Origin: a virus
Virus record (IMG/VR): IMGVR_UViG_3300025009_000122
Location: 1-57,942 of that record
Length of the DNA: 57,942 nt
Reading direction: 5' to 3' (one strand)
Shown here: positions 17,573-57,439 of the stretch, piece after piece
Layout of the letters: the number at the start of each line of letters is the position of its first letter
Position numbering within the stretch: the stretch's first letter is position 1
Position numbers and translations under genes: made by a program
The notes under the pieces: model-generated
The model's database searches: none
Told to the model about the DNA's origin: nothing
Seen by the model: only the letters and a program-made list of their open reading frames with translations

Positions 17573-17985
17573 GCGCACTCTACACCTTCCAATGCGGCAC
17601 CCAAGTAGTTTCCGAAGATTGCATCATTCTCGGGGCAGGCCAGCGCCGTTGCCCGCATCATGCCCTCTATCGGTGCCGCCTCGTCAGGGTAACTCTGAAA
17701 TGCCGGTCATGCCCGAACATCTTCGACAAGGATCCGCGTTCAAAGCAGGTCGATTGCCCGGAATGCCAAGATCGCGTGAGGAAAGAGAAAGCGCGAGAGC
17801 GGAACGCTTCGAGAAAATACCACGTAAAACCCAAGCCGAAGGCGAAACCTGGGTTCTGCACCTTCCCCGGGTGCCCGACTCGCCTATCGGAATACAACCA
17901 CGACGATTTGTGTTTCGTTCATTTGGCCGCTGAGATTGAAGCGGATTTTGAGGATATCGAAGCCGAAGAGGAAGTGGAGTCGTGA
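17569..17985 (+). CDS. Multi-zinc-finger protein, 138 aa
   Basis: Start ATG 17569 overlaps the upstream TGA. Three cysteine/histidine clusters are visible: CPHHALYRC (~28-36), CRSCPN...DCPECQ (CxxC...CxxC, ~45-66), and FCTFPGCPTRLSEYNHDDLCFVH (CxxxxC...H...CxxH, ~93-115). The C terminus is very acidic (EADFEDIEAEEEVES). Such proteins often bind RNA or RNA polymerase; the target here is unknown. Four bases of overlap couple it to the methyltransferase gene. Confidence 0.7.
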   Translation: MSALYTFQCGTQVVSEDCIILGAGQRRCPHHALYRCRLVRVTLKCRSCPNIFDKDPRSKQVDCPECQDRVRKEKARERNASRKYHVKPKPKAKPGFCTFPGCPTRLSEYNHDDLCFVHLAAEIEADFEDIEAEEEVES

Positions 17986-19439
17986 ACCGGGAGTACGGGG
18001 AGATGAACTTCGGCTCGCTTTTCACAGGAATAGGCGGTTTTGATCTCGGTTTCGAACGAGCCGGAATGAAGTGCCTTTTTCAATGTGAAATTGACAAAAG
18101 CTGCAACACGGTACTCAACCGGCATTGGCCGGATGTTCCGAGGATACACGATGTCAAAAAAATCAACGAATCAACTTTCTTTGTTCGGCCCAACCTCATT
18201 TGCGGAGGATTCCCATGCCAAGATTTATCCGTCGCCGGAAAACGTGCAGGGCTGGCTGGAGGAAGAAGCGGCCTTTGGTAAGAATACCGTCGAATTATCT
18301 CTGAGCTTAAACCGGAGTGGGTCGTCGTGGAAAATGTACCCGGACTTCTTTCAAGCCAAGAGGGAAGAGATTTTGCCGTCCTTATTCGAGGGCTGGATGA
18401 ACTCGGGTATGTGGGGATTTGGAAAACTCTTAACAGTCAATACTTTGGAATTCCCCAAAGACGGAGAAGAATCTTCCTTATCGGCCATCTTGGAAGAAAA
18501 TGTCCATCCGAAATACTTCTTATCACCGAAGGCTTGCGCGGGAATTCTCCGAAGGGCCGAGCGGCGGGGGAAAGCGCTTCCGCCGATGTTGCTCCAAGCC
18601 TTACGGGGAGTGGCCGGGGAGTCGAGCGAACTGGAGAGTCAAGAGGACAAGACCCGGTTGTGTGTGTGCCCGACAGAATGCGATTGCCAATCTCCGGACA
18701 CAGAGCCGGCGCTTTGCAGCATGCATTGCCCGGATCACAACTTGAACCCGAAACCCTATCCGGATTGTCCGATTCACGGGTAGTTGCTTCCGTCTCCTCA
18801 AAGTGGTCGAAGGGAACGGAAGGGCCGAGCGGGGATGAGTGCCAGAATCTAATCGTCGGGGCTCTTGCCACTAATTCGGGACCACGTAGCCATGATGCCG
18901 GGAACTTCCATTGCAACCAGGCCGTTGATGCCGGGCATATCATCGCTCACACCCTCAGAGGCCGGAGCTTTGATGGTTCAGAGGACGGGACGGGACGGGG
19001 AACGCCGCTTGTTACGATTGGGTTCTCCTGTAAAGACCACGGCGCGGATGCTTCTGAGATCGCGCCAACTCTCCGATCAATGGAACACGATAAGAGTCAT
19101 TTGAACGGCGGGGGGCAAGTGGCAATTTGCTTCGAATCCCGTTTTGTCCGAAATGGAAGAGGTTCCCCTGAAGAAATCTGCCAGCCCTTAAAAGCCGAAA
19201 GCGGGAAAACAAATAAGGGCGATTCGTCGCCGTTGCTGGCCGGCACTTTCGGGGTGCGCCGTTTAACCCCAACGGAATGCGAGCGTCTTCAGGGTTTTCC
19301 TGACGGGCATACCGCATGGGGCATCGACAACGGAAAGAGAGTCGAAATGTCCGATTCTCAGCGATATCGCCAACTTGGAAATGCCGTTTCAGTCCCGGTA
19401 GCCGAATGGATCGGAAAGCAAATCATGGAGACATTATGA
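17982..19439 (+). pseudogene. Cytosine-C5 DNA methyltransferase, interrupted by one in-frame TAA
   Basis: Read through, the frame encodes ~485 residues with all landmark C5 motifs: I (FTGIGGFDLGFERAG, 14-28), IV with catalytic Cys79 in GGFPCQDLS, VI ENVPG (116-120), VIII QRRRRIFLIG, and IX/X (RRLTPTECERLQGFP; RYRQLGNAVSVPVA). It would methylate cytosine in DNA, protecting the phage from restriction. After Trp99 the codon is TAA (18279-18281) where relatives have an acidic or aromatic residue; the frame then stays open for 385 codons. A restart at GTG 18327 would make a split enzyme. The stop lies inside an overlapping gene, described separately. A sequencing error is the main alternative. Confidence 0.88.
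18151..18783 (+). CDS. Overprinted gene within the methyltransferase, 210 aa
   Basis: In the +1 frame relative to the methyltransferase, ATG 18151 has SD GAGG 7 bases upstream and opens 210 codons, ending at TAG 18783. The product looks like a genuine protein: QLSLFGPTSFAEDSHAKI, SPENVQGWLEEEAAFGKNT, GSSWKMYPDF, WMNSGMWGF, then LSPKACAGILRRAERRGK and a Cys-rich tail (CVCPTECDC...CSMHCPDH). I recall this LFG-TS--DSHAK...GKNT...SGM pattern from uncharacterised phage proteins encoded in or beside C5-methyltransferase genes; unverified here. No function is known. It lies wholly within the methyltransferase frame. Confidence 0.7.
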   Translation: MSKKSTNQLSLFGPTSFAEDSHAKIYPSPENVQGWLEEEAAFGKNTVELSLSLNRSGSSWKMYPDFFQAKREEILPSLFEGWMNSGMWGFGKLLTVNTLEFPKDGEESSLSAILEENVHPKYFLSPKACAGILRRAERRGKALPPMLLQALRGVAGESSELESQEDKTRLCVCPTECDCQSPDTEPALCSMHCPDHNLNPKPYPDCPIHG

Positions 19440-20229: not shown

Positions 20230-20973
20230 ATGCACAGAGGCTACATCAAACTTTGGAGGGCCTTGCAAGATTTGGATCTGTGGGAGCGAGAGAAGTTCAC
20301 GCGCGGCCAAGCATGGGTCGATCTTCTTCTTTCAGCAAACCACAAAGACGGCCATGTGCGAATTTCCGGGCAGCGGATTGAGGTCAAGCGCGGCGAATCG
20401 GCTTTATCAGAAGTCACCCTTGCAAAGAGATGGAAATGGTCACGCGGAAAAGTTCGGAGATTTTTGGCCGAACTTGAATCAGAAATGGAACAGAAGATAG
20501 TACAGCGGAAATATAATGTAACATCCTTAATTGAAATACTTAATTACGAAAAATATCAAGGCAACGGTACAGCGGACGATACACCAGACGGACACCCGAT
20601 AGAACACCAGACGGACACCCGATGGAACACAAACAAGAATGTTAAGAATATCTTCTTGTCCGATTCCATCGAAATCGGACTCAGCGAACTTCTGTTTTCT
20701 TTGATTCGCCTCCGAAACAAAAACGCAAAACCTCCCAACTTCCAATCGTGGGCAAAGTCCTTCGATTTGATGATTCGCCTCGACGGGAGAAAGCCCGAAG
20801 AAATCGAAGCCCTGATTCGATGGGCGCAATCCGATCCCTTCGAATGCACCAACGTCCTTTCGCCGGATAAGCTCCGCAAAAGATACGACCAGCTTTTTTT
20901 GAAATCTCAGAAGAACCGGCCCGTGGTGGTTCAAAGAGAATACATCAACCTTCCAGGTGACTCAGATGAATAA
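20230..20973 (+). CDS. Phage replisome organiser / DnaD-like replication protein
   Basis: The 247-aa protein begins like lambda O/DnaD-type phage initiators: YIKLWRALQDLDLWEREKFT (winged-helix entry), LLLSANHKDG, RGESALSEVTLAKRWKWSRGKVRRFLAEL. A low-complexity linker with variable sequence lies at ~115-135, then a C-terminal helical part (PNFQSWAKSFDLMIRLDGR, EIEALIRWAQSDPFE). These proteins bind the origin and recruit helicase or its loader. Upstream of a primase zinc domain and a DnaB-like ATPase, it forms the replication module. The local A+T-rich linker codons may include the origin, as in lambdoid O genes. Confidence 0.75.
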   Translation: MHRGYIKLWRALQDLDLWEREKFTRGQAWVDLLLSANHKDGHVRISGQRIEVKRGESALSEVTLAKRWKWSRGKVRRFLAELESEMEQKIVQRKYNVTSLIEILNYEKYQGNGTADDTPDGHPIEHQTDTRWNTNKNVKNIFLSDSIEIGLSELLFSLIRLRNKNAKPPNFQSWAKSFDLMIRLDGRKPEEIEALIRWAQSDPFECTNVLSPDKLRKRYDQLFLKSQKNRPVVVQREYINLPGDSDE

Positions 20974-21490
20974 ATTTGAAATCGATATTGCTCAAATCAT
21001 AGAGGCTTCCGGGGTTGAGCTTCGACGATGCGGCAACCACCTCGCCGGGGTGTGCCCCTTTCATGCCGACAAGGACCCATCGATGCACGTATATCCGGAC
21101 GGGCATTTTCATTGCTTCGGATGCGGCGCCCGCGGTGACGTGATCGATTACGTGAAAATGAAATACGGACTTTCCTTTCCGGATGCAAAGCGCCAACTCG
21201 GACTTTCGGACGAAAAGCCCGATCCGGCCGTTACGAGGCAGATGGAGCGGCAACAGGCGCTTTTGAGGGAATTCGAGAAATGGCAGGTCACGTATTCGAA
21301 CAAAGTCGGCGCTTTTCTCAGGATGTGCCGAAAGGTCATGGCAGGCTTAACCCCGGAGGACTTCGACCTTCGTGGGGATTTTCTCCAATGGGTCGAGCTT
21401 TATAAATATCACCTTGAAATTCTCGCTTGCGGTTCTCAGGAGGAGCGATTCCAGCTTTACCGAGAGGTGAAACATGGCAGAAGTCTTTGA
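20966..21490 (+). CDS. CHC2 zinc-finger primase domain protein
   Basis: Start ATG 20966, with AGGTGA just upstream, overlaps the preceding gene by 8 bases. The 174-aa protein has the DnaG-type zinc ribbon: VCPFHADKDPSMHVYPDG (CxxH) and HFHCFGCGARGDVIDYV (CxxC), followed by LSFPDAKRQL. There is no TOPRIM catalytic domain, so it is a primase fragment or adaptor, the catalytic part being absent or supplied by the host. The C-terminal half is helical. Together with the ATPase immediately downstream it resembles a split primase-helicase. Confidence 0.88.
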   Translation: MNKFEIDIAQIIEASGVELRRCGNHLAGVCPFHADKDPSMHVYPDGHFHCFGCGARGDVIDYVKMKYGLSFPDAKRQLGLSDEKPDPAVTRQMERQQALLREFEKWQVTYSNKVGAFLRMCRKVMAGLTPEDFDLRGDFLQWVELYKYHLEILACGSQEERFQLYREVKHGRSL

Positions 21491-27583: not shown

Positions 27584-29547
27584 TGGCGACGGACCGCGAT
27601 ATCAAGAAAGACTCCGAAGAGGCTTACAACGCCGGCCAATCCCACTGGCAAACGTATTGGGAAGAGGCCAAAAAGGATATCCAGTTCCGCGAGGGGAATC
27701 AGTGGACGAATCGCGACAAGTTGTATCTCACATCTCAAGACCGCGAGGCGCTCGTCTGGAATAAGACGCACCGGATCGTCAATCTGGTCGCCGGCTACGA
27801 GCAAAAAAACCTTCTCGCTTTGAAGGTGGATCCGGTCGAAGGGGCGGATGAAAGAACCGCCTCTCAGTTTTCCGGCCTTCTCATGTATATCATGATGAGC
27901 GGAGGGGGGCATCTCGCCTCTTCCTCCGCGTTCGAGTTCGGGCCGGTCATCACCGGGATGAATTTAATTGAGCCGTGGGTGGACCGGACGGACGATCTCC
28001 TTAACGGAGACATCAAGTTTCGGCGCCTCCCCTACAACAGATATGTTTTGGACCCATCGTTTCAGGATCGGAACCTCGATACGGATTGCGGGTTCGTCTT
28101 TACGAGGGACTATTTCACCCGCGATCAGATTTACGGAATGCTTCCCGAGCGAAAGAGCGACATCGAAAAGCTCAAGGGGTGCGGGGCGGATGCGAAGTTC
28201 CAGCAATTCTACCCGCTCAAGGGGAAAAACAACGAGTACAACCTGAAATACGACCGCTTCTATGTTCAGACGCACCGCCCTTACCGGATCCTCGCCGACA
28301 CGCAAACCGGGAGAATCGTTCCGATGCCGGATAAAGGAGACCGGAGAGTAGACGAGCTGATCCGGCTTTTCGCGGGGAGATACCCTCAGCTTAAAGTCAT
28401 CAAGGGCATGCGGAAGGGCGTGGACCTGCATCTTTTTGTGGAGGGTGAGCTCATGTATTCGGGGCTCGATCCTTCCGGCCTCGACGAATATCCGTTCGTT
28501 TTAGAGGCGGGTTACTGGACCCCCGAGGACGAAGACCCGAAATACCGGATGCAGGGAGTCGTAAGGTGCTGCCGGGATCCTGGGACAGAGAGCAACCGGC
28601 GCCGCTCGATGGTGCTCGACATGCTCGACGGGGTGATCAGACAAGGGTGGAAGGCGAAGACCGGGAGCGTCGTGAACGAGGAAGAGCTTTATTCCTCAGG
28701 TTCGGCGGTAGTATGGATGGACAAGAACGCAGAAATGGAAGACGCGCAGCGACTGGCTTCCCCCGAGATCCCGCAAGGGCTCTTCCAGGCGATGCAGATC
28801 ATGGATCAGGACCACGACGAGGTGGCCGGGGTCAACTCCGAAATGCTTGGGAGCGCGGAGAACGACGATATCGAAGTCGCCGCCCTTCTCGCCAAGATGC
28901 GTAGCGCCAACGGCCTCACGACGCTTCAAAGCCTTTTCTCTCACCATCGGAACGCAAAAGCGCTTCTCGGGAGAAAGCAGATTCGGCTGATCCAGAAGAA
29001 TTTCACCCCCGCAAAGGTGCAAAGGATTTTGGGGGAGCCGCCGACGCGGGAGTTCTACGAAAGGGATTTCGGGAAATACGATTGCGTTCCGGTCGAAGGG
29101 TTGCTCACGGATACACAGCGCCAGCAGCATTACGCTCAGATTCTCGCCTGGAAGAAGGCGGGGGCTCCGATACCCTGGACGCACGTCATAGACTTTGCCC
29201 CGATCGAGCGAAAGGACAAGCTCAAGGAGGCGGTCGCGGCCGAGGAAAAGGGGCAGGCGCAGGCGGCGAAACAGCAACAGCAGATGGAGCAGCTCGCGGC
29301 TTCGTTGATGAATGCGGATCGTGCTCAAAAGCTTGCGTCTGCCAGAGAGCGCCTCGAGGAAGCGAAAGGGGAGCGTGCCAAAGCCGACCTTGACAGAGCG
29401 AAGATGGTTCGAGAGATGCAAGGGATAGACCTTGAGAATTTTTCAAAGACGCTTGGACTTCTTCAAAATCTTTTGAACATGATCAGGGTCCCACAAGAAT
29501 CACAGCCACAACAGATAGAGAATATGCAACCGATGGGGCAAGCATGA
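27583..29547 (+). CDS. Portal protein
   Basis: The 654-aa protein matches P22-type portal patterns: YWEEAKKDIQFREGNQWT, ALVWNKTHRIVNLVAGYEQKN (~56-76), FEFGPVITGMNLIEPWVD, then the ring-forming region and MLDGVIRQGWKAKTG, and a C-terminal Ala/Gln-rich helical barrel (EEKGQAQAAKQQQQMEQLAA, ~545-580). The portal is the dodecameric DNA channel of the capsid vertex. ATG 27583 overlaps the terminase stop. Length fits short-tailed phages. The long C-terminal coiled region suggests a P22-like barrel. Confidence 0.88.
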   Translation: MATDRDIKKDSEEAYNAGQSHWQTYWEEAKKDIQFREGNQWTNRDKLYLTSQDREALVWNKTHRIVNLVAGYEQKNLLALKVDPVEGADERTASQFSGLLMYIMMSGGGHLASSSAFEFGPVITGMNLIEPWVDRTDDLLNGDIKFRRLPYNRYVLDPSFQDRNLDTDCGFVFTRDYFTRDQIYGMLPERKSDIEKLKGCGADAKFQQFYPLKGKNNEYNLKYDRFYVQTHRPYRILADTQTGRIVPMPDKGDRRVDELIRLFAGRYPQLKVIKGMRKGVDLHLFVEGELMYSGLDPSGLDEYPFVLEAGYWTPEDEDPKYRMQGVVRCCRDPGTESNRRRSMVLDMLDGVIRQGWKAKTGSVVNEEELYSSGSAVVWMDKNAEMEDAQRLASPEIPQGLFQAMQIMDQDHDEVAGVNSEMLGSAENDDIEVAALLAKMRSANGLTTLQSLFSHHRNAKALLGRKQIRLIQKNFTPAKVQRILGEPPTREFYERDFGKYDCVPVEGLLTDTQRQQHYAQILAWKKAGAPIPWTHVIDFAPIERKDKLKEAVAAEEKGQAQAAKQQQQMEQLAASLMNADRAQKLASARERLEEAKGERAKADLDRAKMVREMQGIDLENFSKTLGLLQNLLNMIRVPQESQPQQIENMQPMGQA

Positions 29548-30398
29548 ACTCGCGGGATAGGGTAGCTCCCGAAAAGACGGAAATTCCCGCCGTCTTCCCG
29601 CGCATTGAAGAACGGGAAACTGAAAGGGGAAGTCAGAAGATGTCGCAGGTCATCGATTTAATGGGGCAAAAATTCGGAAAGTGGGAAGTCGTGGGATTTG
29701 ATGGGGTCAGAAACCGCAACGCTTTTTGGTTATGCAAATGTTCTTGCGGAAAAATGAAGGTGGTCAGGGCATCGTTGCTGAGGTTCGGTGGGACAAAATC
29801 ATGCGGATGCTATAGTGGAGAAGATTTAAGCGGGAAAATTTTTGGAGATCTGACTGTCATTGGCCGCGAAGGGAGTCGGTGGCTCTGCCGGTGCACATGC
29901 GGCAAGCAGGCGCTGGTTTATGCTGGCAATCTGCGGAAGGGCAACACGAAATCTTGCGGGTGCAAATGGCACTTTAAGCATGGCTACGCGCACACAAAGA
30001 TTTATGCTGTTTGGAGAAGCATGATAGGGAGATGCACAAACGCAAGCCTGGAAGTATATCCGCACTATGGGGGGCGAGGAATTCAAGTCTGCGAAGAATG
30101 GATGAAGTTCGAAGCATTTTTGAGAGATATGGGCGACCGGCCTTTCTCGGGTGCTCAGATTGACCGAATCGACAACAACGGCCACTACAGCAAAGATAAT
30201 TGCAGATGGGCTTCGAGGCATCAACAAATGCGGAACACCCGGAAGGTGCGCAACATCACGATAAATGGTGTTACGAAATGTCTCAGCGACTGGGCGCAGG
30301 CTTACGGGGTAAATTACAATACGATTCGGAAAAGAATCATGACCGGTATGTCCCCGGTTGAAGCTATTACGAAACCAAGGGTGGCCAGATGCAGATAA
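29544..30398 (+). CDS. HNH homing endonuclease with tandem zinc motifs
   Basis: The 284-aa protein has two copies of a Cys-rich unit (WLCKCSCGKMKVVRASLLR...TKSCGC and WLCRCTCGKQALVYAGNLR...TKSCGC, ~57-132), then an HNH-type core (YPHYGGRGIQVCEEW; QIDRIDNNGHYSKDNCRWAS) and a C-terminal HTH (KCLSDWAQAYGVNYNTIRKRI). Such free-standing homing endonucleases cut neighbours and spread by gene conversion. The overlap with the portal stop (ATGA) makes ATG 29544 the coupled start, but ATG 29640 has a good SD and a better N terminus (SQVIDLMGQKFGKW); the first ~32 residues may be the remnant of an interrupted gene. Lower G+C than neighbours. Confidence 0.85.
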   Translation: MNSRDRVAPEKTEIPAVFPRIEERETERGSQKMSQVIDLMGQKFGKWEVVGFDGVRNRNAFWLCKCSCGKMKVVRASLLRFGGTKSCGCYSGEDLSGKIFGDLTVIGREGSRWLCRCTCGKQALVYAGNLRKGNTKSCGCKWHFKHGYAHTKIYAVWRSMIGRCTNASLEVYPHYGGRGIQVCEEWMKFEAFLRDMGDRPFSGAQIDRIDNNGHYSKDNCRWASRHQQMRNTRKVRNITINGVTKCLSDWAQAYGVNYNTIRKRIMTGMSPVEAITKPRVARCR

Positions 30399-56266: not shown

Positions 56267-56315
<49 letters not shown>

Positions 56316-56335
56316 ACGCCCCACGATTAGTCAAT

Positions 56336-57439
56336 TTATTCAATATTTTCCATATTTCCAATTGCGCCGCTTGCGGTCTTTTGCACCTCGTTTGAGCCAG
56401 AACCGCAAGCATTATCCGCAAGCATAAATTTTCCCTCTAACCGGGACATGGCATCTTTCATGCTGTCGCCGATGGAATGCAAATAAATCTCGGTCGTTCT
56501 CACTTCCAGATGGCCCAAAATGCCGGAAATTGTTTTGGTCGAAACCTTCTCTTTGTCGGAGAGAAGGCTCGCTACAAAATGACGCAAGGCATGGAACCCG
56601 AACGGAGGATCTATTCCGGCTTTTTTGCAGAGCGAAGGCATGAGCTTGGGGCGATTTTTGAACCTGCGTTTCGTTACCGGATTGTAAAATACGATGGCGT
56701 CCTGTTCGCGGTTGTCCCATAGGCGCTTTAGAATGTCATAAAGATCGGCGTTCATGTACGTGCCGATCGGTGCGTATGCTCCCCCTTTTCGTTTTCTTGT
56801 CCACCTGGTAACTTGGCGCTTCTCGAAATTCACATCCAGCCATCTGAGCCTCAATATTTCATCGATTCTGGCAACGGTGTGAAGGAGGGTCAAGATAAGC
56901 GGCCTGTCGTTTGGGCCTGCGGCGAGTATGAGCTTTAAAACTTCTTCCTCGGAAGGAATGCGCTTTTCGGCCGGCGTGTGCGGCATTTTGTCGATATCCT
57001 CACACGGGTTGATATGGATGAGCTTCAGCCGTTTTTTTGCATACGCGAATAGGGCGGACAGGTCTTTTCTGTGCACATTCAAGTTATGATTGGAATGTCG
57101 GGTGTTCAAATAAGCGCCGACGATCTGAGGCGTGATTTCATCGATCGGGATGTTTCCAGCGTATTCGAGGAAGGACTTGTAAACGTAGGCTTTATATTTG
57201 TAAGTTTTGGTCGCGAATCGTCTTTCGGCTTCATCAAGGTACAGGGACGCGCATTCCCTAAAGGCCATGCCGTGTTGGGTCTGTTGTTGCTTTGATGCCC
57301 CCTGCACTTCCTTTCGGCGCGTTTCTCTTCCTGCCCGGGCAGCTCCCTTTGTCGCGAACCCTCCCCCGGCATAGGTCTTCAGAAGGTATTGAAACGAGTA
57401 CCGCCAGTCTCCCCGCTCCTTGTCCTTCCATAACCCCAT
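56336..57439 (-). CDS. int: Tyrosine integrase
   Basis: The 367-aa protein is a tyrosine recombinase: N-terminal basic arm-binding segment (~1-50), SAM-like core-binding domain (RECASLYLDEAERRFATKTY, ~61-150), catalytic domain with Arg191 (VARIDEIL), Lys in RKRKGG (~216-218), His283-x-x-Arg286 (HALRH), His310 (GHLEVRTT) and nucleophile Tyr319. Complete. It performs integration and excision between attP and the host tRNA-Pro. ATG 57439 follows GGGAGG located inside the upstream HTH gene. Arm-type repeats lie within its last codons. Confidence 0.96.
   Translation of the reverse strand: MGLWKDKERGDWRYSFQYLLKTYAGGGFATKGAARAGRETRRKEVQGASKQQQTQHGMAFRECASLYLDEAERRFATKTYKYKAYVYKSFLEYAGNIPIDEITPQIVGAYLNTRHSNHNLNVHRKDLSALFAYAKKRLKLIHINPCEDIDKMPHTPAEKRIPSEEEVLKLILAAGPNDRPLILTLLHTVARIDEILRLRWLDVNFEKRQVTRWTRKRKGGAYAPIGTYMNADLYDILKRLWDNREQDAIVFYNPVTKRRFKNRPKLMPSLCKKAGIDPPFGFHALRHFVASLLSDKEKVSTKTISGILGHLEVRTTEIYLHSIGDSMKDAMSRLEGKFMLADNACGSGSNEVQKTASGAIGNMENIE
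56368..56424. repeat. Arm-type integrase sites, right side (three copies)
   Basis: ACCGCAAGCG on the minus strand at 56377-56368, AACCGCAAGCA at 56401-56411 and CCGCAAGCA at 56416-56424. They overlap the 3' end of the integrase gene and, with the pair at 56238-56262, bracket the tRNA-derived core. Five copies in under 200 bases fit arm binding by integrase and excisionase. Confidence 0.65.

Follow-up and report, generated by a model that had tools for sequence, protein, structure and literature searches.

Long same-strand overlapping genes are thought to be rare in dsDNA phages, and annotation pipelines suppress such genes. Overprinted viral genes that are nested in another gene on the same strand have been reviewed (PMC8227390). 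The gene that we describe here resembles them in encoding a complete second protein in another frame, apparently with its own start and under purifying selection. Unlike the reviewed genes, it lies in the catalytic domain of a methyltransferase, occurs across phages of many bacterial phyla and belongs to no named family. Another comparison is with the ShiLan domain and Pacc40, hidden HNH endonucleases in phage methylases whose ORFs lie in inserted mobile elements (PMC11855218). There, too, a second protein comes from another frame inside a phage methylase gene, but the ORF described here lies over conserved motifs IV-VIII, without an insertion. A hidden HNH endonuclease of the ShiLan type was rejected, as there was no HNH match in Pfam or the PDB and no inserted element. 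We found no prior description of the gene in the open-licence literature, and an earlier report elsewhere is possible.

The window is the whole IMG/VR virus record IMGVR_UViG_3300025009_000122 (57,942 bases). Its genes are those of a tailed phage: a DnaG-type zinc ribbon is encoded at 20957 and a DnaB-like helicase at 21474, and the minus strand carries an integrase at 56336. The C5-cytosine DNA methyltransferase gene falls into two parts, both of which match PF00145 (E=6.3e-25 and 7.7e-35). Motifs I and IV (PCQ) precede the in-frame TAA, and motifs VI (ENV), VIII (QRRRR), IX and X follow it, all in the same frame, which is therefore not uninterrupted in the window. A first-pass annotation had drawn attention to a 210-codon ORF in the +1 frame of this gene, and to a GAGG 7 nt upstream of its ATG. 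The positions of this ORF and of the TAA that stops the methyltransferase proved correct (Table 1). We infer that the ORF is a genuine overprinted phage gene that is translated from its own ATG, with a probability of roughly 0.93.

Table 1. Coordinates of the overlapping genes and their parts in the window.
Feature	Position	Strand	Evidence or remark
C5-cytosine DNA methyltransferase gene (host frame)	17982..19439	+	PF00145 on both sides of the TAA; one TAA inside
GAGG, Shine-Dalgarno-like, 7 nt upstream of ATG 18151	18140..18143	+	Sequence; SD enrichment in relatives
Overprinted +1-frame gene (very probable), 210 codons plus stop	18151..18783	+	ORF; homologues in the same +1 frame at 167/167 loci; overlap-aware selection test
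N-terminal part of the hidden protein, predicted disordered, over methyltransferase motifs IV-VIII	18151..18471	+	pLDDT ~55; open frame; dN/dS 0.71
In-frame TAA interrupting the methyltransferase	18279..18281	+	Sole stop in the frame
Conserved C-terminal helical core (residues 108-161, around SLSAILEENVHPKYFLSPKACAGILRRAERRGKALPPMLLQALRGVAG)	18472..18633	+	AlphaFold; codon-position entropy; dN/dS 0.30
Cys-rich C-terminal extension, window-specific, start approximate	18661..18780	+	Length compared with relatives

In the AlphaFold model, built from an alignment of 81 sequences, the N-terminal part was predicted to be disordered and residues 110-160 formed a helical core of high confidence, with block-mean pLDDT values of 85-98 across residues 121-160. 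In relatives, the hidden ORF mostly ends 36-50 codons after the start of the core, compared with 89 in the window. The Cys-rich tail, which had been counted as part of the protein, is thus an extension specific to the window that runs past the usual end of the family. Within the window alone, the open +1 frame over the N half had p ~0.11 under synonymous shuffles. This is modest, and because one sequence is unconvincing by itself, the case is a comparative one.

When phage records were searched in all six frames with the hidden protein, 239 of them matched. These included P1 dmt, Mycobacterium omegaviruses, Streptococcus 5093, Caulobacter DMCA, Pseudomonas TC7 and Ruminococcus phages. A further 532 plasmid records matched, mostly from Escherichia/Salmonella and mostly labelled Dam-family methyltransferase there. 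Wherever an inspected record had an intact methyltransferase gene, the match was in the +1 frame of that gene and had been left unannotated. Alignments were required to find relatives in the contig collections, since the window protein, used as the sole query against viral contigs, gave no matches; searching viral and genome contigs with alignments added 160 loci. The family shares the core YFLSxKACxGILRRAExRGKxLP, and at all 167 loci examined it is encoded in +1 relative to a C5-methyltransferase, so the ORF is conserved in related methyltransferases. No stand-alone copy outside a methyltransferase was found in the searched collections, which comprised viral and genome contigs and the motif-selected sets. 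Starting from the methyltransferase gave a similar picture. Among 80 loci picked by methyltransferase motifs, 58 carried the hidden family with this core (type 1), all in +1. P1-like loci picked by their Dam domain comprised 50 haplotypes, of which 48 had a full-length hidden ORF.

The methyltransferase was intact in 162 relatives, flagged in its N half in 13 (some of these spuriously) and had motifs IX-X in a separate ORF in 31. That the hidden gene is preserved while the methyltransferase is broken, as the first-pass annotation had it, therefore describes the window but is not a rule. Because most relatives keep both frames intact, the argument for selection rests on the family and not on the stop in the window. 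The split enzymes, with motifs I-VIII and IX-X in separate ORFs, included L041, L038, L037, L027, L042, L051 and L059. In these, the hidden ORF lay over the end of the first part, which in L041 and L059 ended four codons into the hidden core. P1-like dmt genes (L258-L330) varied in length (672, 754, 862, 1013 and 1095 codons), and in three P1-like haplotypes (L281, L318 and L322) the Dmt frame was interrupted and the hidden ORF intact.

Comparisons with Pfam, NCBIfam, PADLOC and the PDB gave no functional lead and no family or PDB relative for the hidden protein. Structural follow-up had also been proposed, and this yielded the confident helical core described above, while Foldseek with the predicted structure gave no PDB match. 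Only two BFVD matches came near significance, gp104 of phage Thibault (E=0.004) and a methyltransferase entry (E=0.026). Thibault gp104 (G1FGG9) and WMM35488.1 of phage vB_EcoM-813R1 are both annotated as hypothetical proteins and correspond to the +1 frame. Each was recorded singly, with its nature as an overlapping gene unrecognized. Thibault gp104 covers only that part of the hidden frame which follows an HNH-bearing interruption. HNH-bearing interruptions inside the overlap, breaking both frames, were present in Thibault (L256, 875-1707) and the related phage Schatzie (L257); the Schatzie record labels its interruption an intron, with undetermined boundaries. In vB_EcoM-813R1 (L250, 1432-1923), the hidden ORF is itself annotated and the methyltransferase frame is broken. 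In Streptococcus phage Javan255 (L006, 2686-3255), the N-terminal part of the methyltransferase and the hidden-frame core form one annotated ORF, which suggests an indel near motifs IV-VI.

A further comparison concerned phrog_16143 (139 positions), which is labelled 'DNA methyltransferase'. It matches the hidden protein in 70 of 86 members, and the stretch concerned is the +1-frame product, which has no methyltransferase motif. The label was probably borrowed from chimeric gene calls, and this suggests that function labels of this kind need correction.

Selection on the shifted frame was assessed by comparing observed +1 stops with those expected from synonymous-codon shuffles of the methyltransferase frame. 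Across 92 non-redundant loci, the N half had 6 stops where the shuffles predicted 147.6, and the core had none where they predicted 67. Control frames of the same loci were not depleted, with 305 vs 314 stops in the +2 frame and 153 vs 126 in the stretch of the +1 frame that precedes the hidden start. Three sets were picked without reference to the hidden frame, namely loci with the methyltransferase motifs, P1-like loci with the Dam domain and loci of a second branch. The motif-selected set had 6 +1 stops vs 110.7 expected, counted in the 40 of its loci that could be anchored. As a negative control, six bacterial C5-methyltransferase genes without the family had 35 +1 stops vs 37.3 expected, whereas six bacterial genes with the family had none vs 17.4.

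Codon-position variability gave a further view of the same region. Per-site entropy over 93 loci followed the ordinary methyltransferase periodicity upstream, where the third position was variable. Around the core (YFLSxKACxGILRRAExRGK) the pattern was reversed, with entropy near 0 at the methyltransferase third position and ~1.7 bits at the first. This reversal extended to codons outside the search patterns. Pooled overlap-aware dN/dS (NN/NS; 238 pairs from 148 sequences) in the +1 frame fell from 0.99 [0.76-1.28] in the upstream control to 0.71 [0.59-0.84] over the N part and 0.30 [0.22-0.40] over the core, where the value for the methyltransferase frame relaxed to 0.71. The P1-like set, selected by the Dam domain, had a +1-frame core dN/dS of 0.41 [0.24-0.62]; its N half taken alone gave 0.26 [0.03-1.79], which was non-significant. 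The shifted frame is under purifying selection. The suggestion that selection acts on the overlapping protein is thus borne out across the family by stop depletion, entropy and overlap-aware dN/dS alike. Of the checks proposed with that suggestion, those open to computation were carried out, and the hidden gene passed them. The N-terminal half of the hidden protein is only weakly constrained, and part of its similarity reflects the conserved motifs of the methyltransferase that it overlaps.

Of the motif-selected loci that lacked the type 1 core, nearly all had an open +1 frame with a related N half (QLTLFAxDSPAKTS...SGMMRNG) and another C-terminus. This type 2 C-terminus reads WPTPT...LNPTWVEWLMGFPxGWTDL, with LNPxWVEWLMGFPxGWTD as a looser form of its end (for example at L195, 243-830, and at L198, L203, L205 and L227). 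It overlaps WWATEPDVGRVAHGIPNRVDRLK, a segment of the host frame that immediately precedes motif X. Type 2 was present in the +1 frame at all 80 loci picked by the methyltransferase motifs of that branch, 18 of which had already been seen. These loci had 10 +1 stops vs 178 expected. Their +1 frame is likewise under purifying selection, with a dN/dS of 0.65 for the N part and 0.52 for the C part, compared with 0.93 in the control. Judged by eye, the type 2 C-terminus resembles C5-methyltransferase motif IX and may represent a displaced copy of it; Pfam and PDB searches gave no match to back this resemblance. Since this second branch carries a +1 ORF as well, a large share of phage C5-methyltransferases is overprinted in this way.

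An open +1 frame could in principle arise passively, as a shadow cast by the conserved sequence and the composition of the methyltransferase. The N-terminal similarity does follow in part from motif IV (DSHAKTS vs GFPCQDxS), and the window on its own, with its p of ~0.11, would agree with such a shadow. However, the codon-position pattern is reversed in the core, the stop depletion and dN/dS signal are specific to +1, and bacterial C5-methyltransferases without the ORF show no +1 opening. We rejected the shadow on the strength of the entropy reversal, the overlap-aware dN/dS and this bacterial negative control, and regard it as having next to no chance of being correct. Another explanation accepts the +1 frame as coding but has it read only through programmed ribosomal frameshifting near motif VIII, which would fuse the N-terminal part of the methyltransferase to the +1 core. 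It would account for the far stronger +1 constraint past motif VIII than before it, for the single ORF of Javan255 and for the methyltransferase label of phrog_16143 with its 70 matched members. Frameshifting has no need of an upstream +1 frame, yet that frame is open and mildly constrained before motif VIII, and its ATGs are marked. Near the hidden N-terminus in relatives, SD-like motifs preceded 51% of ATGs in the +1 frame, compared with 15% in the methyltransferase frame, 23% in the third frame and 18% at random positions. Nor was a slippery heptamer conserved at the frame switch: 19/93 loci had one there, compared with 9/93 in a stretch used as control. The hidden gene thus appears, from these sequence signals, to have its own translation start. 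Independent initiation seems favoured because of the SD enrichment, the upstream half that is kept open and the absence of a conserved slippery site, and we consider frameshifting as the sole route very unlikely.

The first-pass annotation had claimed that the substitution creating the stop was silent in the hidden frame. Base 18279 does occupy the third position of the GGT codon for Gly43 in the +1 ORF. In 187 relatives, no stop occurs at this column, so that the TAA is unique to the window; the residues are L/Y/W/I/F/M and a few P/H/C/R, never the Glu that the first-pass annotation had supposed. Relatives that share Gly43 have Ser or Thr as the next +1-frame residue, where the window has Lys. 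Judging by the codons of relatives and the adjoining hidden-frame residues, the change that stopped the methyltransferase was probably not silent; most likely it replaced one residue of the hidden protein. The chances are even that the TAA is uninformative about the hidden gene, being either an artefact of sequencing or assembly or a dead-end nonsense mutation. Its absence from relatives would fit this, as would the remaining methyltransferase frame, intact up to motif X, and the origin of the window sequence as a single consensus contig; against it, split or broken methyltransferases at other loci make a genuine break plausible. Such loci bear on function as well. The gene may be real and its protein work apart from the methyltransferase, for instance in early takeover or anti-restriction, the shared location being an accident of origin. 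We see this as a possibility with somewhat less than even odds. It agrees with the basic helical domain, with the very different methyltransferase architectures of the carrier phages (among them split enzymes and P1 Dmt with its Dam domain) and with retention of the ORF where the methyltransferase is split or broken, as in the window, L281, L318 and L322. If linkage were irrelevant, though, a freed copy should arise easily, and the searched collections held no stand-alone copy.

The proposed mechanism for the overprinted gene is as follows. Ribosomes would start at the hidden ATG, marked by the GAGG, on the methyltransferase mRNA and would follow the +1 frame across motifs IV-VIII of the methyltransferase and for another ~40-50 codons. 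The product, ~155-210 aa long, would be disordered in its N-terminal part and would end in a compact helical domain that is basic. It may act as an accessory of the methyltransferase, binding the enzyme or its DNA substrate and tuning activity or specificity. We propose such a role at the methyltransferase or its DNA tentatively, from gene linkage and charge, because the family is found only inside C5-methyltransferase genes, would share their mRNA and has a basic helix. A broader and rather doubtful extension is that phage-type C5-methyltransferase genes encode two proteins as a rule. The +1 product would then be an obligate partner (a specificity, activity or self-restraint subunit) with at least two C-terminal types, one of them with a segment resembling motif IX that covers the C-terminal end of the host frame itself.

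The overlapping gene is ancient and widespread, being retained across phages of Proteobacteria, Firmicutes, Actinobacteria and others. It sits inside one of the best-studied enzyme classes, including the dmt gene of the classic phage P1, and may explain odd features of phage methyltransferase biology. The system is directly testable, as the hidden frame can be stopped by mutations that are synonymous in the methyltransferase. These results suggest that other phage enzyme families are worth searching for hidden frames.

Two further observations concern other parts of the window. A tRNA-like match (56267-56323, minus strand) directly adjoins the tyrosine integrase gene (56336-57439, minus strand), and the two mark a probable attachment site. 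An Rfam match to int-alpA RNA (29550-29615, plus strand), with a score barely above the gathering score, lies within the start of the ORF at 29544-30398.
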